DNA of 64,000 nucleotides from Caldilineales bacterium (lineage in GTDB: Bacteria; Chloroflexota; Anaerolineae; J102), in NCBI GenBank assembly GCA_019695115.1, contig JAIBAP010000018.1, positions 1 through 64,000 on the forward strand, given 5' to 3'. Below the pieces are notes generated by a model. It did not search any database and was not told the DNA's origin. It was given only the letters and a program-made list of their open reading frames with translations. How positions within the stretch are numbered: position 1 is the first letter of the stretch; each line of letters starts with the position of its first letter. This document shows, in pieces, positions 26,739 through 42,029 of this stretch. Made by a program: the position numbers and the translations under genes.

Positions 26739-26768
26739 TTGACAAGGCTCCAACTCTGGTCGTATACT
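26739..26768 (+). promoter_or_regulatory. Promoter of the branched-chain amino-acid operon
   Basis: A perfect -35 box TTGACA (26739-26744), an 18-nt spacer and TATACT (26763-26768) predict a start near 26775, about 33 nt before the leader peptide ATG. Confidence 0.8.
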
Positions 26769-26807
26769 CCCGCCCATCCTCAGACAAGTCATCGTCTTGG
26801 CGCCGAA

Positions 26808-26915
26808 ATGCCTTCTGCCACTGCCTCCACCCTGATCCTCGTTAGCGTTAAGCTCCTCGTCCTTATTAGCGGCCAGGAGCCGTCACCGGTTGGAAGGCAA
26901 GCGCCAGGCAACTAG
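26808..26915 (+). CDS. Branched-chain leader peptide (attenuation sensor)
   Basis: This 35-codon ORF starts MPSATAST and then has LILVSVKLLVLI, in which ten of twelve codons (26832-26867) are Leu, Ile or Val. It ends in TAG at 26913. Such a run is the hallmark of leader peptides that sense charged branched-chain tRNAs in ilv/leu operons. It starts about 33 nt after the predicted transcription start and is followed directly by the attenuator hairpins and ilvB. No purine-rich ribosome site precedes the ATG, the one weak point. The codons after the run form one arm of the antiterminator, so stalling at the Leu/Ile/Val codons would leave that arm free. Confidence 0.85.
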   Translation: MPSATASTLILVSVKLLVLISGQEPSPVGRQAPGN

Positions 26916-26958
26916 ACCACAGCGCACACCCAGGCGAAATCAGCCCCCTTCCAACCGG
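26886..26958 (+). promoter_or_regulatory. Antiterminator of the ilv attenuator
   Basis: CCGGTTGGAAGG (26886-26897), inside the leader ORF, is a perfect 12-nt complement of CCTTCCAACCGG (26947-26958). The second arm is also the left part and loop of the terminator hairpin, so the two structures exclude each other. The first arm starts 18 nt after the last Ile codon, just beyond a ribosome stalled there. Confidence 0.85.
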
Positions 26959-26971
26959 AAGGGGGTTTTTT
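26944..26971 (+). terminator. Attenuator terminator before ilvB
   Basis: The 9-bp stem CCCCCTTCC (26944-26952) / GGAAGGGGG (26957-26965) with loop AACC is followed by six T residues (26966-26971): a complete intrinsic terminator between the leader peptide and ilvB. Confidence 0.9.
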
Positions 26972-27004
26972 GTTCCTTCCCACAACCCAAAACCCAGGCA
27001 ATGT

Positions 27005-27047
27005 CGCCCTCATTTCTCGTTCGTAGACGTGGTTTGAGGGCGTTTTT
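27005..27047 (+). terminator. Second intrinsic terminator in the ilv leader
   Basis: CGCCCTCA (27005-27012) and TGAGGGCG (27035-27042) form an 8-bp stem followed by TTTTT. It lies 34 nt after the attenuator terminator and before ilvB. It may be a backup or a second control point; no matching antiterminator arm was seen. Confidence 0.65.
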
Positions 27048-27049
27048 GT

Positions 27050-27131
27050 TTGTTATTGGTTATTTGTTATTGGATACTATCGGTCAACAACCAATAACCA
27101 ATAACCAATAACCAATCGCCAATAACCAATC
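27050..27131. repeat. 7-bp-period array (TTATTGG ... CCAATAA)
   Basis: GGTTATTTGTTATTGG is followed after a short spacer by repeated CCAATAA heptamers, so the array is also an inverted repeat. It ends a few bases before the ilvB ribosome site. Confidence 0.8.
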
Positions 27132-27153: not shown

Positions 27154-28872
27154 ATGAAGTTGACAGGTTCGAAGATCATTTGGGAAGCACTGATCAAGGA
27201 AGGCGTCACCACCGTCTTCGGTTATCCGGGCGGGGCCATCCTCCCTGCTTACGATGCCCTCGTCGATTATCCGCAGATCCATCATGTCCTGACCCGACAC
27301 GAGCAAGGCGCCGCCCACATGGCCGAAGGCTATGCCCGCGTCGGCGGTGATGTGGGGGTGTGCGCGGCCACCTCGGGGCCGGGCGCCACCAACCTGGTCA
27401 CGGGCCTGGCCGATGCCATGATGGACTCGATCCCCATCATCGCCATCACCGGCCAGGTGCCGACGAATCTGCTGGGCAACGACGCCTTCCAAGAAACCGA
27501 CGTGACCGGGATCACGCAGCCGATCACCAAGCACAACTACCTGGTGACCGATGTGCACGAGCTGCCACATGTGATGAAAGAGGCGTTCTACGTCGCCCGC
27601 ACCGGCAGGCCGGGGCCGGTGCTGATCGACATCTGCAAGGATGTGCAGAACGCCAGCACCGAATTCGATTACGAGGCCATCGAGGTGAAGCTGCCGGGGT
27701 TCAATCCTTTCTTCGGCATCGACGAGGACAAGGTGCGGAAGGCGGCAGAACTGATCAACAACAGCCGCAAACCGTTGATCATCGCTGGGCATGGGGTGCA
27801 GATGGGGAACGCGACCCAGGAGTTGCGGGCGCTGGCCGAGAAAGCCGAGATACCGATCACGACCACGCTTCTGGGGCTGGGGGACATCCCCGAAGGCCAC
27901 CCCCTGGCTCTGGGGATGTGCGGGATGCATGGCGAGGCCCACACCAATATGGCTGTGCAAGCCTGCGATCTGCTGATCGGCATCGGCATGCGCTTCGACG
28001 ACCGCGTGACCGGCCGACTCGATTCCTTCGCCCGCCACGCCAAGATCATCCACATGGAACTGGACCCCGCCGAAGTGAGCAAGAATGTGCGCCCCGACGT
28101 GGCCCTGGTCGGCGACTGCAAAGAGGGATTGCAGGCGCTGCTGCCCCTGGTCCATCCGGCCCGGCATCAGGGGTGGCTGAACGAGATCCGCGGCTGGCAG
28201 GCGGATGGACAGGAGCGCGACATCCTGGGGGCGGAGGTCGATGAACTGATCCCGCCCTATGTCATGCGCCAACTTTGGCACGCCACGCAGGGCCGGTGCA
28301 TTATGGCGACGGATGTGGGCCAACACCAGATGTGGGAGGCGCAGTATTTTCTGCACGACCGCCCGCGTCAGTTGATCACCTCCGGCGGGCTGGGGACGAT
28401 GGGCTTTGCCCTGCCGGCGGCCATCGGCGCCCAGATGGCTGCTCCCGAAGCGTTGGTGTGGGCCGTAGCCGGGGATGGCGGTTTCCAGATGACGATGCAG
28501 GAATTGGCCGTCATCGTCCAGGAGAAGCTGCCGCTGAAGATCGCTATCATCAATAATGGCTTCCTGGGCATGGTGCGGCAGTGGCAACAGCTGTTTTATG
28601 ACAAGCGCTACAGCGGCACCCCCATGCTCAGCCCCGATTTCGTCAAGATCGCCGACGCCTACGACATCCCCGGTTGCCGCGTGAACCGGCGCGAGGATGT
28701 CGCCGCGGCTTTCGAACAGGCCCACAACACCGACGGCCCCTTCTTGATCGAATTCCGGGTCAAGGAAGAGGTGAATGTCTACCCGATGGTGGCGCCAGGC
28801 GCAGGCGTGAGCGATCTGATCCGTCGCCCGAAGGTCGTGCAAGGCCCCAGCGGCGTGGCTCCGGCCTGGTGA
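27154..28872 (+). CDS. ilvB: Acetolactate synthase, large (catalytic) subunit
   Basis: It condenses two pyruvates to 2-acetolactate, or pyruvate and 2-oxobutanoate to 2-aceto-2-hydroxybutanoate, using thiamine diphosphate. The 572-aa protein has the ThDP-enzyme order: N-terminal domain with the conserved [28 protein letters not shown] and [15 protein letters not shown], a central FAD-associated domain ([11 protein letters not shown]), and a C-terminal ThDP domain ([26 protein letters not shown]). The length is standard. AGGAG lies 8 nt before the ATG. It is the first structural gene after the attenuator, with ilvN and ilvC following on the same strand. Confidence 0.97.
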
Positions 28873-28976: not shown

Positions 28977-29531
28977 ATGAACGGAACTGATTCAAGCAGC
29001 AAAGGTTATTCCAAGCATACCGTCGTGGCCTGGCTGGAGGACAAGCCGGGCGTGCTGAACCGGGTGGTGGGGCTGTTTCGCCGCCGCGGGTTCAATATCG
29101 AGAGTCTGTCGGTCGGGCATAGCGAGACGCCCGGCATCAGCCGCCTGACTTTTGTCGTCAACGGCGATGATCGCATGGTCGATCAGGCGGTCAAGCAGCT
29201 GTATAAGCTGGTGAATGTCACCCGCGTCGAAGATCTGACCGACCACCCGGCCGTGATCCGCGAGATGGCGTTGATCCGGGTCAAGGTGGATGGGCAGACG
29301 CGGTCGGAGGTGATGCAGATCGTGGACATCTACCGCCAGCAGATCGTGGACGTGAGCATGGATGCGCTGGTGATCCAGGCGGTGGGGGCCGAAGACAGGG
29401 TGAACAGCCTGATCGAGTTGCTGAGCAACTATCCCATCCTGGAGATGGTGCGCACCGGCTCGGTGGCAATGACGCGCGGCCATGCCGGACGCAATGGCAG
29501 TTCGGCGCCGTTGCGACGAGCAGCGCTGTAA
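28977..29531 (+). CDS. ilvN: Acetolactate synthase, small (regulatory) subunit
   Basis: This 184-aa subunit has an N-terminal ACT domain ([32 protein letters not shown]) and a C-terminal ALS_ss domain. It activates IlvB and gives valine feedback inhibition in characterised enzymes. The size fits the longer bacterial IlvH/IlvN type. A purine-rich GAGGAAACG precedes the ATG. It is in the operon order ilvB-ilvN-ilvC, separated from ilvB only by a repeat array. Confidence 0.96.
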
Positions 29532-29535
29532 TCAC

Positions 29536-29626
29536 CTGGTTATTGGTTATTGGTTATTAGGAGCAGTAATCTCCAATAACCAATCTCCAACAACCAATCT
29601 CCAACAACCAATCTCCCCTTCATTCC
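29536..29626. repeat. 7-bp-period array (TTATTGG / CCAATAA / CCAATCT)
   Basis: Inverted and direct heptamers of the family seen at 27050-27131 fill the ilvN-ilvC gap. Confidence 0.8.
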
Positions 29627-29641
29627 AAAGGACTACTTTTC

Positions 29642-30643
29642 ATGGCAACTATCTACTACGACAAGGATGCCGATCTTTCTCGGCTGGCAGGACGCAAGAT
29701 CGCCGTACTGGGCTACGGCAGCCAGGGCCATGCCCATAGCCTCAATCTGCGCGACAGCGGCATGGACGTGCGCGTGGGTCTGTACAAAGGCTCGGGTTCG
29801 TGGGCGAAGGCCGAGGCCGAGGGTCTGCGCGTGGTCTCGACCGATCAGGCCTGCGCCGAAGCTGACGTGATCATGATCCTGGCGCCCGACACCTCGCAAG
29901 CGAAGATCTATAAGGAGAGTATCGAACCGCACCTGAAGCCCGGCAAGACGCTGATGTTCGGGCACGGCTTCAACATCCGTTTCGGCCAGATCGTGCCGCC
30001 GGGCTTCGTGGATGTGAGTATGGTGGCGCCGAAAGCGCCGGGGCACCGTGTGCGCGAGGTGTTCAGCGAGGGGGTCGGCACGCCGGGGCTGGTGGCGGTC
30101 TATCAGGATGCCAGCGGCAATGCCTGGGCCGACGCACTGGCCTACGCCAAGGGCATCGGCTGCACCCGGGCTGGAGCCATCGTCACCACCTTCAAGGAAG
30201 AAACCGAGACCGATCTCTTTGGTGAACAGGCGGTGTTGTGCGGCGGCGTCAGCGCCCTGGTCAAGGCCGGGTTCGAGACGCTGGTCAAGGCCGGGTATCA
30301 GCCGGAAGTGGCCTATTTCGAGTGTATGCACGAGCTGAAACTGATCGTCGATCTGTTCTACCAGGGGGGGCTGAATTATATGCGCTATTCAGTTAGCGAT
30401 ACGGCCGAGCATGGCGATTATCATGCCGGCGACATGCTCATCACCGACGAAACCAAAGCCACCATGGGTAAGATCCTCGATGACATCCAGTCCGGCGCCT
30501 ATGCCGAGGAGTGGATCGAGGAGAACGCCAACGGCCGCCCCAACTTCAACGCCCGCCGCGCTGCCGAGCGGGAGCATCAGATCGAGCAGGTCGGGCGCGA
30601 CTTGCGGCGGATGATGCCGTGGTTGAAGGCGAAGGAGGTGTAG
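29642..30643 (+). CDS. ilvC: Ketol-acid reductoisomerase, class I
   Basis: It isomerises and reduces acetolactate with NADPH to 2,3-dihydroxyisovalerate (and the isoleucine counterpart). This is the short class I form (333 aa) with a Rossmann motif [13 protein letters not shown] near residue 24, the Mg-binding [13 protein letters not shown] and the knotted C-terminal helical domain ([14 protein letters not shown]). AAAGGA lies a few bases before the ATG. It is the third gene of the operon, and the next 230 nt hold a repeat array and then a non-pathway gene. Confidence 0.97.
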
Positions 30644-30860
30644 GTGGCAGGTCGCAGGTGGCAGGTCGCAGGTGGCAGGTCGCAGGTGGCAGGTGGCAGG
30701 TGGCAGGTCGCAGGCGGCAGGCGGCAGGCGGCAGGCGGCAGGCGGCAGGTCGCAGGTGGCAGGTCGCAGGTCGCAGAGCTTGTCCTGAGTGGAACGAAGG
30801 ATCGCAGGTCGCAGGTCGCAGAGCTTGTCCTGAGTGAAACGAAGGATCGCAGGTGCTGCG
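30644..30860. repeat. 7-bp-period array (GCAGGTG / GCAGGTC / GCAGGCG) plus two 40-bp direct repeats
   Basis: Heptamers run for about 130 bases directly after the ilvC stop. Two copies of a unit containing AGAGCTTGTCCTGAGTG and GAACGAAGGATCGCAGG follow. The array ends just before the ribosome site of the IVP gene. Confidence 0.85.
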
Positions 30861-30874
30861 AGTAGGAGGCAAGG

Positions 30875-31291
30875 ATGGCAGCAACTTTCAAGAATTATGA
30901 TGAATGGCAGCAGCAGGTTCCTGAGAGTCTGAAGCGCGATCAGTTGTGGCAATTCGAGACCTACCGCAAGGCGTTGTTCCTGTCGGACCTGGCCTGGTTC
31001 GATGCTGAGAAGTTGCTTGCCGACCCGCGTGGCCGGGCAACTGCCTGGCAACTGGTGGATGCCGCCGGTTCGGTTTCTGCCAACATCGAGGAAGGTTACG
31101 GCCGCGGGTTTGGCAAGGATTATGCCCGCTTTCTGCGGATTGCCGCCGGTTCTGCGAAAGAAACTCGAGGCTGGTACTTTCGTGGCCGCCATGTGTTCGA
31201 CGCTGCCCTGGTGAGCCACCGCCTGGCCTTGGCTGACGAAATCATTGGCGGCCTTGTCACCACCTCCAACCAACAAAGAGGGCGCGACTGA
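30875..31291 (+). CDS. Four-helix-bundle protein of the 23S rRNA IVP family
   Basis: This 138-aa helical protein has the IVP-family core [19 protein letters not shown] followed by [20 protein letters not shown]. Members were first found in intervening sequences of 23S rRNA genes but are common as free-standing genes, often in variable regions; the molecular function is unknown. There is no 23S rRNA gene here. It sits between ilvC and leuA directly after a large repeat array, so it is best seen as an accessory insertion in the operon. Confidence 0.8.
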
Positions 31292-31385
31292 CCTCATTCC
31301 CATTTCTCTGGCTTGGTCCAACTGTCTGCAGAAGACACTTGCCACCTGCCACTTGCGACTTGCGACCCCCCAAAGGAGACCCCCC

Positions 31386-33047
31386 ATGTCTAGTTCACTG
31401 ATTTCCGGCCCCGACAAAGTCCTGATCTTCGATACCACGCTGCGCGATGGCGAGCAGTCGCCGGGGGCGACGCTGAATGCGCAAGAGAAGCTGGAGATCG
31501 CCCGGCAGCTGGCCCGGCTGGGCGTGGATATCATCGAAGCTGGCTTCCCGGCCGCCTCGCCCGGCGACCTGGAGGCGGTCAAACGCATCGCCGAGACGGT
31601 GGGACGAGAGCCGCGCCTGGATAAGCACGGCCGGCCGGCCGAGCCGCCGGTCATCGCCGGGCTGGCGCGGGCGAACAAGAATGATATCGACGCCGCCTGG
31701 GAGGCGGTGCGCCCGGCCAGTCACCCGCGCATCCACACCTTTCTGGCCACCTCACCGGTGCACATGGAGCACAAGCTTAAGATGACGCCGGACGAGGTGG
31801 TGGCGCGGGTGGCCGAGCAGGTGGCCTACGCCCGATCGTTGTGCGAGGATGTGGAGTTCAGCCCCGAAGACGCCGGGCGCAGCGACCCGCGCTTCCTCTA
31901 CCGGGTGCTGGGGACAGCCATCCAGGCCGGGGCCACCACCCTCAACATCCCCGACACCGTGGGTTACATCACGCCCGATGAGTTTGGCCGCCTGATCCGC
32001 GACATCCGTGAGCACACCCCCGGCGCCAAAGACGTGGTCATCTCGGTGCACTGCCACAACGACCTGGGCCTGGCCACGGCCAACACCCTGGCCGGGGTGC
32101 AGAACGGCGCCCGGCAGATGGAAGTGACCATCAACGGCATCGGCGAGCGGGCCGGCAACACCAGCCTGGAAGAGGTGGTGATGGCGCTGTATGTGCGCGG
32201 GCAGGTGTTCGAGACCGAGACGAACATCGTCACCCAAGAAATCCACCGCACCTCGGACATGGTCAGCCGCTACACCGGCATGGTCATCCAGCCGAACAAG
32301 GCCATTGTCGGCGCCAACGCCTTTGCGCACGAGGCCGGCATCCATCAGGACGGGATGCTGAAGCACAAGCGCACCTACGAGATCATGGACGCCGAGACCA
32401 TCGGCCTCAGCCACAGCCAGTTGGTGCTGGGCAAGCATTCGGGCCGGCACGCCTTCCGGGTGCATCTAGAAAAGATGGGCTATCATCTGGACGACGAGGC
32501 CCTGACCAAGGCGTTCAAGCGCTTCAAAGAAGTGGCGGACAAAAAGAAGGTCGTGACCGACGCCGACATCGAGGCGCTGGTGGGCGATGAGGTCTACCAG
32601 CCCAAGGAGACGTGGGAATTGGTGCGGCTACAGGTGCAGTGTGGCAATAACGTCATCCCCACCGCTGTCGTCACCCTGCGCAATAGCGAGACGGGTGAGT
32701 CGAAAACCGCGGCGGGGTTTGGCACCGGGCCGGTGGATGCCGTGTGCAAGGGGATCGATAGCATTGTTCAGGCCCCGAACGAACTGACCGAGTTCCTGGT
32801 GCAGGCCGTGACCGAGGGCATCGACGCCAACGGCGATGTGACCATTCGCGTGGCTGTGCCCCAAAGCCGGGGTTACAGCCACACCGCCCAGGGCCGCGCC
32901 CGCCGGCGGTTGTTCTCGGGCCGGGGCATCGACACCGACATCATCGTCGCCAGTGCCAAAGCCTATCTGCAGGCGCTGAACAAGCTGATCGATGCCGGCA
33001 GCGAGGACAGCGCCACGGTGAGGATGGGGAATGGGGGAAAAGTGTGA
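31386..33047 (+). CDS. leuA: 2-isopropylmalate synthase
   Basis: It condenses acetyl-CoA with 2-oxoisovalerate, the first step of leucine synthesis. The 553-aa protein has [15 protein letters not shown], the metal site [21 protein letters not shown], and the C-terminal LeuA allosteric domain (from about residue 400; [16 protein letters not shown]) that binds leucine. The open frame begins at 31245, but AAGGAG 9-10 nt before the ATG at 31386 fixes the start. The TGA is followed after 9 nt by the restriction endonuclease gene, so those genes are probably co-transcribed. Confidence 0.96.
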
Positions 33048-33056
33048 GGTATTGAC

Positions 33057-33722
33057 ATGCTGGCCCTGACCATCACCACCCTGCGCGAAGAAGCCGCTCG
33101 CTTTTCCGCCGCCGAATCTGGCTATGCCGAGCAATCGCTTTTCGGCATTACTGACGGCAAGGCCATCGGCACCTACCTTGAGCACAAATTCCGGGCCTTT
33201 CTGCGGGCGCGCTTTGAATTCGAGGAAGGCAGTTCGGCCAGTGGCATTGATTTTCCCGGTCTCGCTGTGGATTTGAAAGTCACGAGCATTCAGGAACCAC
33301 AATCCTATTGCACTTTCAAATCTGCTTGGCAGAAGGTCTACGGTCTGGGTTACGCCCTACTGGTCTTCATCTATGAAAAATGCGATGATGAAACTAATCA
33401 TACGAGCAAACTGAATATCGTGCACACGCTTTTCATCGAAGCTGAGCGTACGGCTGATTACTTGACGACGCGTGGCGTTCGCAATATCTTGGCCAGCAGC
33501 GGGAGCCGTGACGATCTCATCGATTTCATGTTCGAACGCAATCTTCCTATCGATGACATCCAGGCGAGCGACCTGGCGGATGAGATTCTGCTGAATATAC
33601 CCAAACAGGGCTTTCTCACCCTCTCGACTGTACTGCAATGGCGATTGCACTACAGCCGAGCGATCGAGCGTGCAGGAATGGAAGAAGGCGTCACTAATTT
33701 GTATACTGCACGTGACTGTTAA
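33057..33722 (+). CDS. Probable type II restriction endonuclease
   Basis: This 221-aa protein has a PD-(D/E)XK-like site, SGIDFPGLAVDLKVTS, in which the Asp and the D-L-K are spaced as in type II restriction nucleases. SYCTFKSAWQKVYGLGYALL follows, as in a family of short endonucleases. It lies 20 nt upstream of a DNA methyltransferase, which strongly supports a restriction-modification pair. GAGG lies 8 nt before the ATG, itself only 9 nt after leuA. Recognition sequence unknown. Confidence 0.7.
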   Translation: MLALTITTLREEAARFSAAESGYAEQSLFGITDGKAIGTYLEHKFRAFLRARFEFEEGSSASGIDFPGLAVDLKVTSIQEPQSYCTFKSAWQKVYGLGYALLVFIYEKCDDETNHTSKLNIVHTLFIEAERTADYLTTRGVRNILASSGSRDDLIDFMFERNLPIDDIQASDLADEILLNIPKQGFLTLSTVLQWRLHYSRAIERAGMEEGVTNLYTARDC

Positions 33723-33742
33723 ACAGCCGTCCGCTGACAGGA

Positions 33743-35068
33743 ATGAACAATCTCTTGGATCCAAACTACAAAACCGTCGCCGAACAACGTAAATACAGCG
33801 TCCTCGATGTCAAGGCAGCCAAACAGGTGAGTTTGGTCTGGCTGGAACGCGCACAGTTGGATCAGGCGATCGATTTTGGCTTGCCGGAGATCGATGATCG
33901 CTATCACATCTGGCGCGTGCCTTTGCTCGGCCGGGCGAGCCAACAACCAGTCGGCGAGGTGGTCATCGATGCCAGAACTTCGCTCATCCTCGAAAACAAA
34001 TCGACCGATCCGGCGGTTCTGGAATCGCGATTGTTGGGCAGGAGCGAACGCCAGGCGAAGACAGGGACAAACTCACGGAATGGGGTATACCAGCTTTCCA
34101 CCCTGCGCAACACAATAGCGCAGGGCGATTCCGAAGAGATTTTGCAGGACTTGCCGGCAGGAAGCGTGGATCTTATCTTCACCTCGCCGCCTTACTACAA
34201 TGCCCGACCAGAATACCAGGACTACATCACTTACGAAGAATATCTGCTCAAAGTTCGCAAGATCAGTCAGAACGTGCATCGTGTGCTGGCCGAAGGGCGC
34301 TTCTTTGTGATGAATGTGTCGCCGGTGTTGATCCGGCGATCGAATCGCACCGAGGCGTCGAAACGCATCGCTGTACCCTTTGATATGCACCGGCTGTTCG
34401 TCGAAGAAGGCTATGATTTCATCGATGACATCATCTGGGTGAAGCCAGAGGGCGCGGGCTGGGCGACGGGGCGGGGCCGTCGCTTTGCCGCTGACCGCAA
34501 TCCGCTGCAATACAAGCCGGTTCCCGTGACCGAGTATGTGCTCGTCTATCGCAAGCAGACCGAGAAGCTGATCGATTGGAACATTCGCGCCCATCCGCAG
34601 CCGCAGAAGGTAGAAGCATCTCGCATCGACGACGACTACGAACGGACAAATGTTTGGCGCCTCACACCTACGTACGACAGGCGTCACCCGGCCATCTTCC
34701 CGCTCGAACTGGCCAAGAAGGTCATCCAATACTATTCTTTTCAGGATGATGTCGTCCTCGACCCCTTTGCCGGGATCGGCACCACGGGCAAAGCTGCCGC
34801 TATTCTCGGACGACGCTTTGTTTTGATCGAACAGAACCCCGAATATGTTCAGATCATACGTGAAGAAGCAATGGGTTGGCTGGGCGAAGAAGCGAAGCAG
34901 ATACTCACGATCAATTGCCAGCCAATTGAGGAGACAGGCCGATTGAACCGCGCACTTGGCTTCCAGCACGAATTGGTCAGCATGGACCGAAGCCAGATCG
35001 ACGCCTTTCTGAGGCAAAAACTGAACGAAGTCCCGCTCGAACAATTCATCGGCGCCCACGCCGTCTGA
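33743..35068 (+). CDS. Site-specific DNA methyltransferase, beta class (N4-cytosine or N6-adenine)
   Basis: This 441-aa protein has the catalytic motif [15 protein letters not shown] (about residues 150-164) before the SAM-binding motif [14 protein letters not shown], the order of the beta class. S-P-P-Y rather than D-P-P-Y favours N4-cytosine but does not exclude adenine. The first 130 residues are a family-specific N-terminal part. It should protect host DNA against the adjacent nuclease. The pair splits leuA from leuC on the same strand. Confidence 0.85.
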
Positions 35069-35087
35069 GAACCTCAACCATCCGCAG

Positions 35088-35130
35088 CAAACCCAATCCC
35101 CAATCTCCAATCCCCAATCTCCCAATCTCC
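35088..35130. repeat. 7-bp-period array (CCCAATC / TCCAATC) before leuC
   Basis: About six heptamers run right up to the leuC start codon, leaving no visible ribosome site. The same family is translated within the subtilase gene at 26308-26358. Confidence 0.8.
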
Positions 35131-36534
35131 ATGCCCCCACAAACCCTCTTCGCCAAAGTCTGGGACCGCCACGTGGTCAAACAAGACCCCGGCGCGCCCG
35201 CCGTGCTGTACATCGACGCCCACCTGGTGCACGAAGTCACCTCGCCGCAAGCCTTCGCCACCCTGCGCGAGCGCGGACTGAAGGTGCGCAGGCCAGACAA
35301 GACCTTCGCCACCATGGACCACGCCATCCCCACACGGCCGGTCGGGATCGAACTCTGGCCGAGCGACGCCGCCAACCAGGTGCGCACCCTGCGCCAGAAC
35401 GCCCACGACTTCGGCATCACCCTGTGGGATATCGAGGGCGAGGTGCAGGGCATCGTCCATGTCGTCGGCCCGGAGATGGGCGTGACCCAACCGGGCATGA
35501 CCATCGTCTGCGGCGACAGCCACACCAGCACGCATGGCGCCTTTGGCGCCCTGGCCTTCGGCATCGGCACCAGCGAGGTCGGGCATGTGCTGGCCACGCA
35601 ATGCCTGCTGCAATCGCGGCCCAGGACCTTCGCCATCGATGTCGAAGGTGAACTGGGCTTCGGCGTTACGGCCAAAGACATCATCCTGGCCATCATCGCC
35701 AAGAACGGCGCCGGCGGCGGCGCGGGCTACGTGTTCGAGTACCGCGGCAGCGCCATCCGCAAGCTGAGCATGGCCAACCGCATGACGATCTGCAACATGA
35801 GCATCGAGGGCGGCGCTCGCGCCGGCATGATTGCCCCGGATGAGACCACCTTCGCCTACATCAAGGGCCGGCCGTTCGCGCCGCAGGGGGCGGAGTGGGA
35901 CGAGGCCGTGGCCTCCTGGCGCACACTGCCCAGCGATGAAGGCGCCACCTTCGACCGCGAACTATTCCTCGATGCCAACGCCCTGCAACCGATGGTCACG
36001 TACGGCACCAATCCCGGCCAGGGCGTAGCCGTGACCAGCCGCATCCCCACCCCTGACGAACTCGCTGACCCCGCCGAGCGCCGCAGCCTGCTCAGCGCCA
36101 TGGACTACATGGGCCTGAAACCCGGCCAGCCCATCGCCGGCCAGCCGATCGACATCGTCTTCATCGGCTCGTGCACCAACAGCCGCATCGAGGACCTGCG
36201 CGAGGCCGCCGCCATCGTCCGGGGCAGAAAAGTGGCCGGGGATGTGTGGGCCATCGTCGTGCCCGGCTCGAAGGCGGTGAAAGCGCAGGCCGAAGCCGAA
36301 GGGCTGGACCGCGTGTTCAGCGAAGCCGGTTTCGAGTGGCGCGGGGCCGGGTGCAGCATGTGCCTGGCCATGAACGACGACAAGGCCGGCGCCGGCAAGT
36401 ATGTGGCCAGCACCAGCAACCGCAACTTCCAGGGCCGGCAAGGCCCCGGCGCCCGCACGCTGCTGATGAGCCCGATCATGGCGGCGGCGGCGGCAGTGCA
36501 GGGCCGCGTGGTGGACGTGCGCGAAATGATGTAA
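35131..36534 (+). CDS. leuC: 3-isopropylmalate dehydratase, large subunit
   Basis: With LeuD it isomerises 2-isopropylmalate to 3-isopropylmalate, and citramalate to methylmalate in the CimA route. The 467-aa aconitase-type protein has the cluster ligands in [10 protein letters not shown] and GCSMCLAMN plus [13 protein letters not shown], and the length is typical of bacterial LeuC. The ATG directly follows a heptamer array. Its partner leuD is 1.4 kb downstream, separated by two minus-strand gene pairs; normally leuC and leuD are adjacent. Confidence 0.96.
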
Positions 36535-36672
36535 GCGGTGGACGGGGAAACCCATAGACCAGGAGAGGAGGAAGTTTTCCCCGGTTTCCTGGTTTTCTGG
36601 CCTAACCGATTACGCTTACCGTTGCACCACACCCATCTTCTTGTCCCCCCCATTGCCCCAAGGCAGATTGAC

Positions 36673-36918
36673 TCAATAGCTCAACACAGTTTCTGCTCGA
36701 TGCGATTCTGGAATGCGCGAGATCTGGATGACCAGACGAAGGGCCTCATTGACAGCCTCATCGGTCGGAAATGCTTGCGCCACATCCGAATCAAGGACAA
36801 TCAGATTCCTACCCAAACGTCTCTCAGGAGCGTATCTGCCTTTAGCGACAATCGTCATTTTCGACAGATCATACTCGTCATTTAGTTCGTAATCGTTTGG
36901 ATCATTCTGCTTGTGCAT
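36673..36918 (-). CDS. BrnT-associated antitoxin (BrnA/CopG-like)
   Basis: This 81-aa protein contains DEYDLSKMTIVAKGRYAPER and LIVLDSDVAQAFPTDEAVNEAL, the layout of small ribbon-helix-helix antitoxins paired with BrnT. AAGGAGGAG precedes the ATG. It overlaps the end of the BrnT gene by 17 nt and lies downstream of it, the usual toxin-then-antitoxin order for this family. Confidence 0.7.
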   Translation of the reverse strand: MHKQNDPNDYELNDEYDLSKMTIVAKGRYAPERRLGRNLIVLDSDVAQAFPTDEAVNEALRLVIQISRIPESHRAETVLSY

Positions 36919-37177
36919 AGAAGTTCTCCTCCTTCTTGGTTGCTCTACGGGCGCTGATGATGCGGATCAGGCCGTTTCGGTCAGTATGCGCTACCATGAG
37001 TAGCCGAGATGCGTTCGACAGGCCAACGGTGATGTACCGTTCCTCATCCTCCGAATGTTCATCATCCATCACCGTGATAAACATGGGATCGTTGAACACT
37101 GTCACTGCCTCGTCGAATGAGATGCTGTGCTTGCTGAGATTGCTGGCAGCCTTCCTGGGATCCCATTCGAAGTGCAT
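36902..37177 (-). CDS. brnT: BrnT-family ribonuclease toxin
   Basis: This 91-aa protein has the BrnT pattern FEWDPRKAASNLSKHSISFDEA, then RYITVGLSNASRLLMVAHTD and the C-terminal RIISARRATKKEENFY. BrnT toxins cleave RNA and are held in check by BrnA, which also represses the operon. The gene lies antisense to the leu genes, between leuC and leuD. Confidence 0.85.
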   Translation of the reverse strand: MHFEWDPRKAASNLSKHSISFDEAVTVFNDPMFITVMDDEHSEDEERYITVGLSNASRLLMVAHTDRNGLIRIISARRATKKEENFYAQAE

Positions 37178-37209
37178 GGCCGCGTCGTAGATGTGCGAGA
37201 GACGATGTA

Positions 37210-37257
37210 GACCGGTAGACCAGGATGTTTCTCCCGGTTTCCCGGTCTACTGGTCTA
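37210..37257. repeat. Inverted repeat between two minus-strand gene pairs
   Basis: TAGACCGGTAGACC and GGTCTACTGGTCTA pair with one mismatch around a pyrimidine-rich loop. It lies just after the 124-aa gene on the minus strand and could end its transcription. Confidence 0.45.
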
Positions 37258-37621
37258 CCAGATTACGCTTGTCGATGAACTCCACCGGCTCTTTCTCCGC
37301 CCCGTTATCCCAAGAGAGGGAATAGAACCAGACGCCACTCTCCCCCAACATGAACGCTGCCGGAGACCAGAATGGCCCCATGACGGTATGGGCATTGCCA
37401 TTCTGATCGTATTCTTCGATTTCTGCAGAAGCAAGATTGATCTCTGGCTGATATTCCGCCGGCCAGCCAAAAGCCTCTCCCTGCCACACCTTCCCTTCTG
37501 CATGGAGTCTCCAAGCCAAAGAACGCACCTTTGTCAGACTCGGAATCAGTACAGGAATCTTCGCGACTGACTTCTGCGAAGGTCGAAAGTGCGGTTCCAC
37601 CAAAACCTGAACAGCGTTCAT
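37247..37621 (-). CDS. Unknown 124-aa partner of the DUF4160 protein
   Basis: I do not recognise this 124-aa protein. It contains FGWPAEYQPEINLASAEIEE and GPFWSPAAFMLGESGVWFYS with many aromatic residues and no TM segment. Its ATG overlaps the stop of the DUF4160 gene by 4 nt, so the two are translated together. DUF4160 genes usually pair with a short DUF2442 gene; this partner is longer and does not clearly look like one. Confidence 0.6.
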   Translation of the reverse strand: MNAVQVLVEPHFRPSQKSVAKIPVLIPSLTKVRSLAWRLHAEGKVWQGEAFGWPAEYQPEINLASAEIEEYDQNGNAHTVMGPFWSPAAFMLGESGVWFYSLSWDNGAEKEPVEFIDKRNLVDQ

Positions 37622-37860
37622 TGCTTATCCTTTTCTTCACGCCAACACTGGCGCAGGTAGTCGTGATAGTCCCGCACAAGGCGTTCGATCACGGCTAAGT
37701 CATGTGGACGAAAGCCGATGTTGCGAGCAGGTCGCACAGGATCGAGCCAGAACTTCGACTCACGTTCTCCTTTGCGTACGTGTACGTGCGGAGGTTCGTT
37801 CGCCAAATCGTATGGATAGAAGAAAAAGCGGTATCCTTCTTTGCGCAGTCCGGTCGGCAT
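37618..37860 (-). CDS. DUF4160-family protein, possible toxin-antitoxin component
   Basis: This 80-aa protein has the DUF4160 pattern YRFFFYPYDLANEPPHVHVR and a C-terminal helical part (IERLVRDYHDYLRQCWREEK). The family is usually encoded in two-gene cassettes suspected to be toxin-antitoxin systems. A promoter-like TTGTCA-N16-TAGAAT lies upstream on the minus strand. It is the second antisense cassette between leuC and leuD. Confidence 0.7.
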   Translation of the reverse strand: MPTGLRKEGYRFFFYPYDLANEPPHVHVRKGERESKFWLDPVRPARNIGFRPHDLAVIERLVRDYHDYLRQCWREEKDKQ

Positions 37861-37898
37861 GACGGTCTGACACTATTGGTTGAGATGACGTATCTTTT

Positions 37899-37926
37899 AT
37901 TCTACACCATGCCGGTCGCCTGACAA
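37899..37926 (-). promoter_or_regulatory. Candidate promoter of the DUF4160 cassette
   Basis: On the minus strand TTGTCA (37926-37921), a 16-nt spacer and TAGAAT (37904-37899) lie about 39 nt before the DUF4160 start codon. Confidence 0.45.
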
Positions 37927-37954
37927 ACTCCCTCCCATCCTCCTCTCATACCCC

Positions 37955-38566
37955 ATGCACCCCTTCACCACCCTCACCGCCACCGCCGCGCCGCTGCGCG
38001 CCGAAAACGTCGACACCGACCAGATCATCCCCGCCCGCTACCTCACCGCCGTCACCAAGGCGGGTATGGGCGATGGCCTCTTCGCCGCCTGGCGCTACGA
38101 CGCCAACGACCAGCCCAAACCCGACTTCATCCTCAACCAGCCGCAGTTCGGCAGGGCGCAGGTGCTCATCGCCGGGCGCAACTTCGGCAGCGGCTCCTCG
38201 CGCGAGCACGCCGTCTGGGCGCTGACCGAGTACGGCTTCCGGGCCGTGATCTCGCCCGGCTTCGCCGATATCTTTTACAATAACTCGCTCAAGAACGGCC
38301 TGCTGCCGATCACCCTGCCCGAAGCCGCCGTCAACATGCTGCTCGACCTGGTGGAAGAACAGCCCGACACCCGCATCGCCATCGACCTGGCCGCCCAAAC
38401 CGTGACCCTGCCCGATGGCCAGCAAGCTGACTTTGCCATTGACCCCTATCGCAAGCTCTGCCTGCTGGACGGGCTGGATGATCTCGGCTATCTCCTGGCG
38501 CAGGACGCGGCCATCGCCGCCTACGAGGGGCGATCAGCAGCATCGATGGCCGCAGCGCCCGTCTGA
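37955..38566 (+). CDS. leuD: 3-isopropylmalate dehydratase, small subunit
   Basis: This 203-aa swivelling-domain subunit works with LeuC. It has the N-terminal LRAENVDTDQIIPARYL, then GRNFGSGSSREHAVWAL and ISPGFADIFYNNSLKNG, all diagnostic for LeuD. No ribosome site is obvious before the ATG. It is followed at 43 nt by a 67-aa gene and then leuB. The gap from leuC, filled by antisense cassettes, raises the question of how LeuC and LeuD are kept in balance. Confidence 0.95.
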   Translation: MHPFTTLTATAAPLRAENVDTDQIIPARYLTAVTKAGMGDGLFAAWRYDANDQPKPDFILNQPQFGRAQVLIAGRNFGSGSSREHAVWALTEYGFRAVISPGFADIFYNNSLKNGLLPITLPEAAVNMLLDLVEEQPDTRIAIDLAAQTVTLPDGQQADFAIDPYRKLCLLDGLDDLGYLLAQDAAIAAYEGRSAASMAAAPV

Positions 38567-38608
38567 ATCCCCTACCCACCCACACCCATCATTTGCGGAG
38601 GCCCGAAC

Positions 38609-38812
38609 ATGGATTCCCGTCCCACCCCCACCACCCCCGAGACCATCGAGGAAGCCGAACCCTACTTCCCCGCTGAACTCCCTGTGCAACTGGACGACGC
38701 CGACAGCATCGCCCGCTACCCGGCCCGCGTGGTACGCGACGCCATCGACAGACAGGAACGGCTGTGGAGCCGCGACGCCCTGCTAAAAGAATCCGAAGCC
38801 GGCCAGGACTAA
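38609..38812 (+). CDS. Small acidic protein of unknown function between leuD and leuB
   Basis: This 67-aa acidic protein ([20 protein letters not shown]..., ending [13 protein letters not shown]) has a good ribosome site (CGGAGG, 9 nt spacing), and its stop lies 7 nt before the leuB start codon, so it is almost certainly translated with leuB. I recognise no domain. It has a Pro/Thr-rich, probably disordered start and one likely helix ([20 protein letters not shown]). It might be a small accessory subunit of the dehydratase or unrelated. Confidence 0.65.
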
Positions 38813-38819
38813 ACCAGCG

Positions 38820-39914
38820 ATGACACACTACCGCATCGTCCTCCTCCCCGGCGATGGCATCGGCCCGGAAGTCGTGGGCGAGGCCCAGGCCGTGCTGCAA
38901 GATCTCGCCCCGGCCTTCGGCTTCAGCCTGGACTTCGAGACCCACCTGATGGGCGGGTGCGCCATCGACGCTTTCGGCGCCTCTCTGCCCGACTCCACCC
39001 TGGCCGCCTGCCGGCAAGCCGATGCCGTCCTGCTCGGCGCCGTCGGTGGCCCGAAATGGGACAACCCCAACGCCGCCGACCGTCCCGAACGCGGCCTGCT
39101 GGCCCTGCGCAAGGGCCTGAACCTGTACGCCAACCTGCGCCCGGTCAAAATCTTCCCCCAACTGCTGGATGCCTCCAGCCTGAAAGCCGATGTCCTCGCA
39201 GGCGTGGATATGCTCGTCATCCGCGAGCTGACCGGCGGCGCCTACTTCGGCCCGCGCCAGGAAGGCGACCAGGAAGCCTACGACACCATGCTCTACACTC
39301 GCCCTGAGATCGAACGCGTGGTGCGGGTGGCGGCGCGGGCGGCGCGCGGCCGGCGGGGCAAGCTCACGTCGGTGGACAAGGCCAACGTCCTCGCCTCGTC
39401 CCGGCTCTGGCGCAAAGTCACGACCCAGGTCATGGCGGCCGAGTTCCCCGATGTGAAACTGGAGCACCAACTGGTCGATTCGATGGCCATGCACCTCATC
39501 CGCTGGCCCTCGGCTTACGATGTGATCGTGGCCGAGAACCTGTTCGGCGACATCCTGACCGACGAGGCGGCGATGCTGGCCGGGTCCATGGGCATGTTGC
39601 CCTCGGCCAGCCTGGGCGATACGACCCTCGGCCTCTACGAACCCATCCACGGCTCCGCCCCCGACATTGCCGGCAAAGGCATCGCCAACCCCCTCGCCAC
39701 CATCCTCTCTGCTGCCATGCTACTGCGGCACTCGCTCGGTCAGGAGGGGGCGGCGCAGGCCATCGAGGGCGCCGTCGCCCAGGCCCTGGCCGCCGGCTAC
39801 CGCACCCCCGACCTGGCCGGCGTCGCCGCACCCGACCAGACGGTGGAGGTGGTGGGCACACAGGCGATGGGAGCGGTGGTGCGGCAGTTTTTGGCGGAAG
39901 CCAGGCGGAGCTGA
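38820..39914 (+). CDS. leuB: 3-isopropylmalate dehydrogenase
   Basis: This 364-aa enzyme carries out NAD-dependent oxidative decarboxylation of 3-isopropylmalate (and of methylmalate in the CimA route). It has [11 protein letters not shown] at the N-terminus, [27 protein letters not shown], the metal-binding [15 protein letters not shown] and [15 protein letters not shown]. Length and motif order are standard. It is closely spaced after the 67-aa gene and followed by hicA at 20 nt. Confidence 0.96.
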
Positions 39915-39934
39915 TTCTTGATCGGAGGCTCACG

Positions 39935-40183
39935 ATGTCGCGAAGAGACAAAATCCTCGATCAACTACTACGCGGCGTGTCCGACACGAACATCGCCTTC
40001 GATGATCTACGCTATCTGTTGCTGGAACTCGGATTTGACGAACGCATTCGAGGCAGTCATCATATTTTCAGCAAGAGTGGCGTGCTCGAGATTATGAATT
40101 TGCAGCCAAAGGGGGCAAAAGCAAAGCCCTATCAGGTGAAACAAGTGCGCACCATCATCCTGAAGTACAAACTCGGAGGTTGA
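39935..40183 (+). CDS. hicA: HicA-family mRNA interferase toxin
   Basis: This 82-aa double-stranded-RNA-binding-fold toxin has RGSHHIFSKSG, where the central His is the catalytic residue in HicA, and the C-terminal PYQVKQVRTIILKYKLGG. It cleaves mRNA independently of the ribosome in characterised members. It is in the same orientation as leuB and cimA and 1 nt upstream of hicB, so the pair could be read within the biosynthetic operon. Confidence 0.88.
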   Translation: MSRRDKILDQLLRGVSDTNIAFDDLRYLLLELGFDERIRGSHHIFSKSGVLEIMNLQPKGAKAKPYQVKQVRTIILKYKLGG

Positions 40184-40184
40184 A

Positions 40185-40394
40185 ATGTCCAGATACGAGG
40201 TTATTCTGTTCTGGAGCGATGAGGATGAGGCATTCGTCGCCGAAGTCCCGGAGCTTCCCGGCTGTATGGCCGATGGCGTCACCTATCAGGAGGCGCTCAA
40301 GAATGTCGAAATCATCATTCGCGAATGGTTGGAAACAGCCAGAGAATTGGGTCGCCCCATCCCGGAACCGCGCGGCCGCCTGGTCTACGCCTGA
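40185..40394 (+). CDS. hicB: HicB-family antitoxin, short form
   Basis: This 69-aa protein has the HicB partial-RNase-H pattern YEVILFWSDEDEAFVAEVPE, LPGCMADGVTYQEAL and a following helix. It lacks a C-terminal DNA-binding domain, so autoregulation by this protein alone is unlikely. GGAGG precedes the ATG, located inside the end of hicA. Confidence 0.88.
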   Translation: MSRYEVILFWSDEDEAFVAEVPELPGCMADGVTYQEALKNVEIIIREWLETARELGRPIPEPRGRLVYA

Positions 40395-40448
40395 GCACAG
40401 TGCGCATCGCAATCTCCACTTACCAATCTCCAGTTACCAGTTCCACCC

Positions 40449-42029
40449 ATGACCATCCAACTCTACGACACCACCCTCCGCGACGGCACCCAGGGCGAAG
40501 GCGTCAACTTTTCGTCCGGCGATAAACTGCGCATCGCTCGCAAGCTGGACGAGCTAGGCGTCCACTTTATCGAAGGCGGCTGGCCCGGCTCCAACCCTAA
40601 GGACATGGATTTCTTCCAGCGCGCCCGCACCGAGTTGAACCTGAAACACGCCCGCGTCGCCGCCTTTGGCTCGACCCGCAAGGCCAACACCCCGGTCGAG
40701 ACCGATGCCCAGGTGCAGATGCTGCTCGATTGCGACACGCCGGTCGTCACCATCTTCGGCAAGACCTGGACGCTGCACGTGCATGATGTGCTGCGCACGA
40801 CCCTGAAAGAGAACGTCGCCATGATCTTCGACAGCGTGTCGTACCTCAAGGAGGCGGGCAAAGAGGTGATCTACGACGCCGAGCACTTCTTCGACGGCTA
40901 TCGGGCCGACCCAACCTATGCCGTGCGCACGCTCAAGGCGGCGGAGGAGGCCGGAGCCGACCTGATCGTGCTCTGCGACACCAATGGCGGCACCATGCCC
41001 TGGGACATCGAGCGCATCATCGGCGAGTTACGGGCGGCCGGGATCGGCAGGCCGCTGGGCATCCACACCCACAACGACGGCGAACTGGGTGTGGCCAACG
41101 CTCTGGCGGCCGTGCGGGCGGGCTGTGTGCAGGTGCAGGGCACGATCAACGGCTATGGCGAGCGCTGCGGCAACAGCAACCTGGTCAGTATCATCGCCAA
41201 CCTGAACCTGAAGATGGGTTTGCAGGCGGTCTCGCCCGAACAATTGCACCGCCTCACCGAGGTCTCGATCTTCGTCAGCGAGCTGGCCAATCTAAACCCC
41301 GACACCCACGCCGCCTATGTTGGCATGAGCGCCTTCGCCCACAAGGGCGGGGTGCACGTCAACGCCGTGGTCAAAAATGTGGATTCGTACCAGCACATCG
41401 ACCCGGCGCTGGTGGGAAACCGGATGCGGGTGGTGGTTTCCGACCTTGCAGGCAAAGACAACATCGCCGTCAAGACGCTGGAATTCGGGATCGAAGGTGT
41501 GACGCGCGAGCAGGAGAAGGAAGTCCTGGCCCAGATCAAGAAGATGGAGCATGAGGGCTACGCCTTCGAGGCGGCCGAAGCCTCGGTCGAGCTGATGTTG
41601 CGGCGGATGCAGCCAGGCTATAGCTCGCCGTTCGAGATGATGGATTTCACCACCAATGTCGAACACCGCCGCGGGCGGGGGCTGTTCTCAGAGGCGACGG
41701 TGAAGGTGCGGATCTGCAACGAGATTTTTCATGAGGTGGCCGAGGGCAATGGCCCGGTCAATGCCCTCAACCTGGCGCTGCGCAAGGCCCTGCACCGCTT
41801 CTATCCCCAACTGGAAGACGTCCACCTGACCGACTATAAGGTGCGCATCCTGGACACACACATGGCCACCGCCGCCACCACACGGGTTCTGATCGATTTC
41901 ACCGACGGCCAGCGGAACTGGAGCACGGTGGGGGCCAGCGCCAATATCATCGAAGCCAGCTGGCTGGCGCTGGCGGATGGGCTGGAGTATGCGCTATTGA
42001 CCGCTTCGCCGCCAGCGAACGGCCACTGA
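40449..42029 (+). CDS. cimA: (R)-citramalate synthase
   Basis: It makes citramalate from pyruvate and acetyl-CoA, giving a threonine-independent route to 2-oxobutanoate and isoleucine through LeuCD and LeuB. The 526-aa LeuA-like protein starts LYDTTLRDGTQGEGVNFSSG (Thr and Gly in place of the LeuA Glu/Ser-Pro) and has HIHNDGELGVANALA-type metal site residues (THNDGE), INGYGERCGN and a C-terminal allosteric domain. The first domain matches the CimA group rather than homocitrate or isopropylmalate synthases. A short heptamer-like array (40408-40446) lies before the ATG. It is the last gene of the locus. Confidence 0.92.
   Translation: MTIQLYDTTLRDGTQGEGVNFSSGDKLRIARKLDELGVHFIEGGWPGSNPKDMDFFQRARTELNLKHARVAAFGSTRKANTPVETDAQVQMLLDCDTPVVTIFGKTWTLHVHDVLRTTLKENVAMIFDSVSYLKEAGKEVIYDAEHFFDGYRADPTYAVRTLKAAEEAGADLIVLCDTNGGTMPWDIERIIGELRAAGIGRPLGIHTHNDGELGVANALAAVRAGCVQVQGTINGYGERCGNSNLVSIIANLNLKMGLQAVSPEQLHRLTEVSIFVSELANLNPDTHAAYVGMSAFAHKGGVHVNAVVKNVDSYQHIDPALVGNRMRVVVSDLAGKDNIAVKTLEFGIEGVTREQEKEVLAQIKKMEHEGYAFEAAEASVELMLRRMQPGYSSPFEMMDFTTNVEHRRGRGLFSEATVKVRICNEIFHEVAEGNGPVNALNLALRKALHRFYPQLEDVHLTDYKVRILDTHMATAATTRVLIDFTDGQRNWSTVGASANIIEASWLALADGLEYALLTASPPANGH

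Follow-up and report, generated by a model that had tools for sequence, protein, structure and literature searches.

We find that ilvB in a 64,000-nucleotide stretch of DNA from a Caldilineales bacterium (contig JAIBAP010000018.1, hereafter the window) is preceded by a promoter, a leader ORF, an antiterminator and a terminator. This element is far beyond chance because the same leader precedes ilvB in 14 same-family genomes (G000, G001, G003, G005-G012, G023, G024 and G026) and a covariance model finds it in the window's own genome with E = 2.4e-23, as the sole significant copy there. We interpret the element as a ribosome-mediated transcription attenuator that would sense charged Leu/Ile/Val tRNA and control the ilv-leu-cimA genes, and from the sequence evidence we give this interpretation a probability of about 0.92. 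An earlier note on this DNA had proposed an attenuator before an ilv-leu-cimA locus, and the proposal is supported by conservation of the leader reading frame and covariation of the antiterminator arms, with ribosome stalling and termination as its probable steps.

Anatomy of the leader upstream of ilvB

All features described here lie on the forward strand. A motif scan identified a sigma-70-type promoter at 26739-26768, with TTGACA at 26739-26744, an 18 nt spacer and TATACT at 26763-26768. The promoter matches 11 of 12 consensus positions, was observed once compared with 0.3 times expected in shuffles, and is kept as TTGACA/TATA(C/A)T in same-family relatives. Downstream is a leader ORF of 35 codons followed by TAG (26808-26915), which encodes MPSATASTLILVSVKLLVLISGQEPSPVGRQAPGN and was assigned from the ORF together with frame-specific conservation in 88 leaders. 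Codons 9-20, encoding LILVSVKLLVLI, include 10 Leu, Ile or Val codons out of 12. The ORF is short, looks translated and carries a run of pathway codons, as an attenuator leader should.

Segment A (GCUCCUCG, 26852-26859), which lies on Leu-Leu-Val control codons, forms the 5′ side of a hairpin with segment B (CCAGGAGC, 26873-26880); both were assigned by covariation and a swap test. The resulting A:B hairpin spans 26852-26880, embraces the Leu-Leu control codons and corresponds to the 1:2 pause hairpin of the attenuator class. Segment C (CCGGTTGGAAGG, 26886-26897) is the 5′ arm of the antiterminator and lies within the leader ORF on Pro-Val-Gly-Arg codons, exactly 18 nt after the last Ile codon (26865-26867). 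The leader stop UAG is 15 nt past C. Segment D (CCTTCCAACCGG, 26947-26958), the 3′ arm, is a perfect 12-nt complement of C, covaries with it, and overlaps the 5′ side of an intrinsic terminator, D:E (26944-26971). The terminator stands before the first gene, where attenuators carry one, and consists of CCCCCTTCC-AACC-GGAAGGGGG at 26944-26965, with 9 bp and an AACC loop, followed by T6. The conserved antiterminator helix C:D and the terminator are mutually exclusive.

The promoter, the 35-codon ORF with its 10 of 12 Leu/Ile/Val codons, the perfect 12-nt arms, the 9-bp terminator that uses the second arm and the 18 nt spacing had all been described in the earlier note, and each was recovered here. 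Its account needs one correction in anatomy: the leader has five segments, with an additional hairpin, A:B, on the control codons that also covaries. The note mentioned neither this hairpin (26852-26880) nor another terminator-like element at 26996-27047.

Distribution of the leader and the genes that follow it

The leader lies close upstream at loci L006, L008 and L009 and further upstream at L007; in G002 and G004, ilvB is broken by the contig end. A model consisting of A:B and D:E, from which C:D was left out on purpose (R1), matched 98 of 298 class genomes (covariance model, E ≤ 0.01). At E ≤ 0.001, a second model (R2), built on an alignment of 75 of the R1 matches (A5), had matches in 68 of the 400 genomes from the phylum, including 36 outside the class, and a few of the weakest matches are without a leader. 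The 42 non-Chloroflexota genomes serving as an outgroup gave no match at E ≤ 0.001, and three weaker ones with E of 0.005-0.01. When short ilvB flanks were scanned, weak Verrucomicrobiota matches with Leu/Ile/Val leaders were recovered (L184, L178 and L172), and these are probably independent attenuators. We discounted weak covariance-model matches that have no convincing leader (L130, L139, L271, L275, L279-L281, L283 and L285), and a search pattern of GGCCAGGAGC..CGGTTGG with three mismatches was too permissive for counting. The suggestion that such a leader would be notable in this phylum is borne out as to its presence in Chloroflexota and understates its extent, because the element recurs phylum-wide. 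One copy is in a named strain, Bellilinea caldifistulae GOMI-1 (L196, 606-742), so the prediction is testable there. Two attenuators in series before one operon occur at L121 (G016), L123 (G203) and, in family f89, at L253, L255, L259 and L263.

The first structural gene in the window is ilvB (27154-28872, TIGR00118), followed at 28977-42029 by ilvN, ilvC, leuA, a type II restriction-modification pair, leuC, leuD, leuB and cimA, in that order and in a presumed transcription unit. The pair, a type II restriction endonuclease and an N6/N4 DNA methylase, occupies 33057-35068 between leuA and leuC, and a 138-residue ORF in the ilvC/leuA interval (30875-31291) matches PF05635 (23S rRNA-intervening sequence protein). 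Of 90 loci, 72 have ilvB as the first gene that was recognised, and in about 13 of these it lies 1.2-2.0 kb away, mostly past ilvD; ilvD was counted as first where the retrieved stretch stops short of ilvB. Other first genes were leuA (L124), leuS (L084 and L276), ilvE (L246) and a liv-type transporter (L266 and L272). At four loci from families f16 and f32 (L065, L067, L078 and L081), a strong Leu/Ile/Val attenuator is followed by a conserved ORF of about 60 residues (MAEKTFWMEE...GYAPPDW...RRRY), which had no Pfam match. The leader at L282 (G454), MKNNFAPKYYYYYYFGRIKVRLGESL, contains six Tyr residues and precedes DAHP synthase and further shikimate-pathway ORFs, and is apparently a Tyr/Phe-sensing version of the same architecture. 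For a deep-branching and mostly uncultured phylum, sequence alone thus predicts a regulon that would respond to amino-acid starvation (ilv, leu, leuS, liv and aro).

Two leader helices co-evolve

In the family alignment (A3, 14 sequences), C:D is 93.5% paired and its covariation was reached by 0 of 500 shuffles. On A5, an alignment that is not fitted to C:D as this helix is outside model R1, we counted 62 cells changed on both sides compared with 19 in shuffles, and again 0 of 500 shuffles reached the observed covariation. The A:B helix gave 64 such cells compared with 20 in shuffles, and every one of its 8 pairs showed two-sided changes; this count leans towards A:B because A:B belongs to the model. 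Within the family A:B is almost invariant and therefore uninformative. Many of the sequences are related, so these covariation counts are not independent events. We also performed a partner-swap test that is alignment-free, using 88 leaders from 24 families and 5000 permutations. Segment C paired with its own D at -24.4 kcal/mol, compared with -18.9 kcal/mol with the D of another family, and A:B paired at -16.1 kcal/mol compared with -12.8 kcal/mol when swapped; none of the 5000 permutations reached either observed value. The check on relatives that the earlier note had called for thus came out in its favour, with the Leu/Ile/Val run kept in frame over 24 families and arms C and D covarying.

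A small B:C hairpin was considered as an anti-antiterminator and rejected: it is 90% paired, yet has zero covariation and is broken in G010 and G012. No conserved anti-antiterminator was found in the alignments, because the control-codon hairpin A:B and arm C do not overlap, B ending at 26880 and C beginning at 26886, and A:B does not share the antiterminator arm. A shared-arm anti-antiterminator characterises the enteric form with its four segments, not the mechanism class, and our results suggest that attenuation via the ribosome can be built without such a hairpin.

Leader translation and a proposed mechanism

In the 88 leaders from 24 families, Leu, Ile and Val account for 80-93% at most positions between 15 and 5 codons upstream of C when read in frame, and for much less in either other frame. 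This run stops a median of 11 nt short of C, roughly the position at which a stalled ribosome would leave C just exposed. Leaders start with ATG in 84 of 88 cases. The median distance from ATG to C is 74.5 nt (IQR 68-80) and the stop follows the end of C by 2-11 nt (interquartile), both with C taken with extended pairing, and the stop is a median of 31 nt from D (IQR 28-35). In G016, G185 and G116 the stop is just upstream of C, so a terminating ribosome would still sit on C. Class-wide, 22 of 88 leaders have a Shine-Dalgarno-like site in front of the start, compared with 4 of 88 when a control window was scanned; none of the 14 leaders in the window's family, the window included, has one before its ATG, which agrees with the weak point acknowledged in the earlier note.

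We then folded the leaders conditionally, masking a ribosome footprint that is an E. coli-like assumption. Placing a ribosome in the middle of the run gave C:D a predicted probability above 0.8 in 78 of 88 leaders, and with a ribosome at the stop C:D was blocked (P < 0.2) in 54 of 88. Without a ribosome the outcome for C:D was mixed over leaders, and C:D formed in the window leader. With a ribosome at the stop of the window leader, most of C falls outside the assumed footprint and C:D has a probability of about 0.8; C is not fully masked by this ribosome, so the exclusion needed must be steric or kinetic. From these folds, too, we find no conserved anti-antiterminator, and an untranslated window leader is predicted to be ON and to read through.

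Based on this geometry we propose that RNA polymerase would initiate near 26775 and that A:B, set on the control codons, probably pauses the polymerase until a ribosome arrives. A ribosome stalled at the Leu/Ile/Val codons (codons 9-20) would expose arm C, which could catch D as it emerges and prevent the D:E terminator, allowing transcription to enter ilvB. A ribosome that passes the run would instead cross C and halt at the UAG 15 nt further, where it may keep C off D, such that D would pair with E and the transcript would end near 26971.

We considered whether the leader could be a metabolite-binding riboswitch or a protein-bound leader, with the ORF present by chance and its Leu/Ile/Val run incidental. 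The nucleotides of B and C are strongly conserved within the family (GGCCAGGAGC and CGGTTGGA), but this conservation relaxes outside the family while the pairing is maintained. Actinobacterial leuA LEU elements provide a precedent for leader peptides whose mechanism is unclear (PMC1262725). Against such a reading, the Leu/Ile/Val run is frame-specific and fixed in position, an aromatic operon is preceded by the same architecture with Tyr codons in the leader, and there is no Rfam aptamer match, and we consider it very improbable. We give slightly less credence still to a nascent-chain arrest peptide, in which the conserved GQEPxPVGR tail would halt the ribosome in response to leucine and not to uncharged tRNA. 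The tail is kept in the family, but it is encoded by RNA arms B and C and its residues shift with the arms outside the family (for example EDQRPFR, KEPARVG and REELAAG), and G016, G185 and G116 do without the PVGR part, their stop preceding C. It is scarcely credible that two tandem constitutive terminators with a chance Leu-rich ORF shield ilvB from upstream transcription, since two terminator-like hairpins do precede ilvB but phylum-wide recurrence, antiterminator covariation, the codon run and the element's own upstream promoter all speak against it. Ribosome-mediated attenuation is therefore the interpretation we retain.

Relation to known attenuators

The enteric attenuators (trp, ilvGMEDA, ivbL-ilvBN and leu) share with the Chloroflexota leader an ORF of pathway codons, a control-codon hairpin, mutually exclusive antiterminator and terminator, and a short distance to the operon. 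They have four segments, whereas the Chloroflexota leader has five, in which B and C are separate neighbours, so A:B is no anti-antiterminator. In enteric leaders arm 2 follows or meets the leader stop, whereas arm C is part of the ORF and the stop usually comes a few to 15 nt after it. Leader attenuators in the ilvB region are known from enterics and Actinobacteria (PMC1262725, PMC10272879, PMC11857589). The Actinobacterial ilvB leaders, which include the Corynebacterium ilvB-II motif and the ilvBNC three-hairpin attenuator, likewise have a leader peptide with branched-chain amino acid codons and a terminator (PMC10272879, PMC11857589, PMC1262725), but the C. glutamicum model has an explicit anti-antiterminator hairpin (PMC11857589), and none is conserved in the Chloroflexota leader. 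The ilvB-OMG motif, which has been re-read as a uORF attenuator rich in branched-chain amino acids and found in several phyla (PMC10272879), shares the association with ilvB and the branched-chain-rich uORF, and the one difference observed is that our element has no Rfam 15 match. T-box leaders also sense tRNA charging and govern a terminator, but bind the tRNA directly; they have been reported for Chloroflexi, at Dehalococcoides ileS and trpE (PMC2494555; see also PMC3766115).

Searches of Rfam 15 at gathering thresholds and at E ≤ 10 returned only chance matches, mainly to the AATAACC repeats downstream of the leader. Leu_leader (RF00512), Trp_leader (RF00513) and other Rfam families did not reach the gathering threshold, and the T-box or specifier structure (RF00230) had no match at the leader. 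The element can be aligned as an RNA family, and Rfam has no entry for it. Attenuation by the ribosome is classical, but in the open literature we found no description of an attenuator in Chloroflexota, where this co-evolving structure recurs throughout the phylum.

A second element between the leader and ilvB

The region at 26996-27047 contains a mini-hairpin, GGC-AATGTC-GCC (26997-27008), and another terminator, in which 27005-27012 pairs with 27035-27042 ahead of T5; the mini-hairpin overlaps the terminator's 5′ arm. The mini-hairpin and this terminator are mutually exclusive, and the consensus is RGGC-AAYGNN-GCCY over 17 copies, 13 of them in the family and the others in f32, f26, f33 and f31. 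Positions A1 and G4 of the hexaloop are invariant in 17 of 17 copies, which together with the overlapping terminator agrees with the P2 loop rule for ANTAR targets (PMC3369931). No consistent AxxGxx hairpin, as expected for P1, was found within 70 nt upstream, and with P1 missing we rejected a canonical ANTAR target. Each of 11 tested genomes encodes an ANTAR protein, and one genome encodes two; the only one in G000 is at C44:11328-11489. We also rejected a genome-wide terminator habit: other matches in the window fall in coding sequence, and a model of the element (R3) has a single strong match in each family genome. Like elements stand ahead of two genes that were named by eye from translation, a probable thrC (L325) and a probable alanine dehydrogenase gene (L340).

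A wider proposal, which we offer tentatively and regard as rather unlikely to hold as a whole, is that the five-segment attenuator uses the moving ribosome as its anti-antiterminator and is ON when untranslated, reversing the enteric rule; that in Chloroflexota the principal branched-chain regulon would be under its control, with re-tuning to Tyr/Phe in some lineages; and that the second element, as an ANTAR-like antiterminator with a single hairpin, would give the leader at ilvB two checkpoints.

AATAACC-type repeats at 27040-27130, past the second terminator and ahead of the ribosome site of ilvB, form a long inverted repeat, and short repeats of a similar kind occupy the same place in other genomes of the family (G007, G011 and G026).
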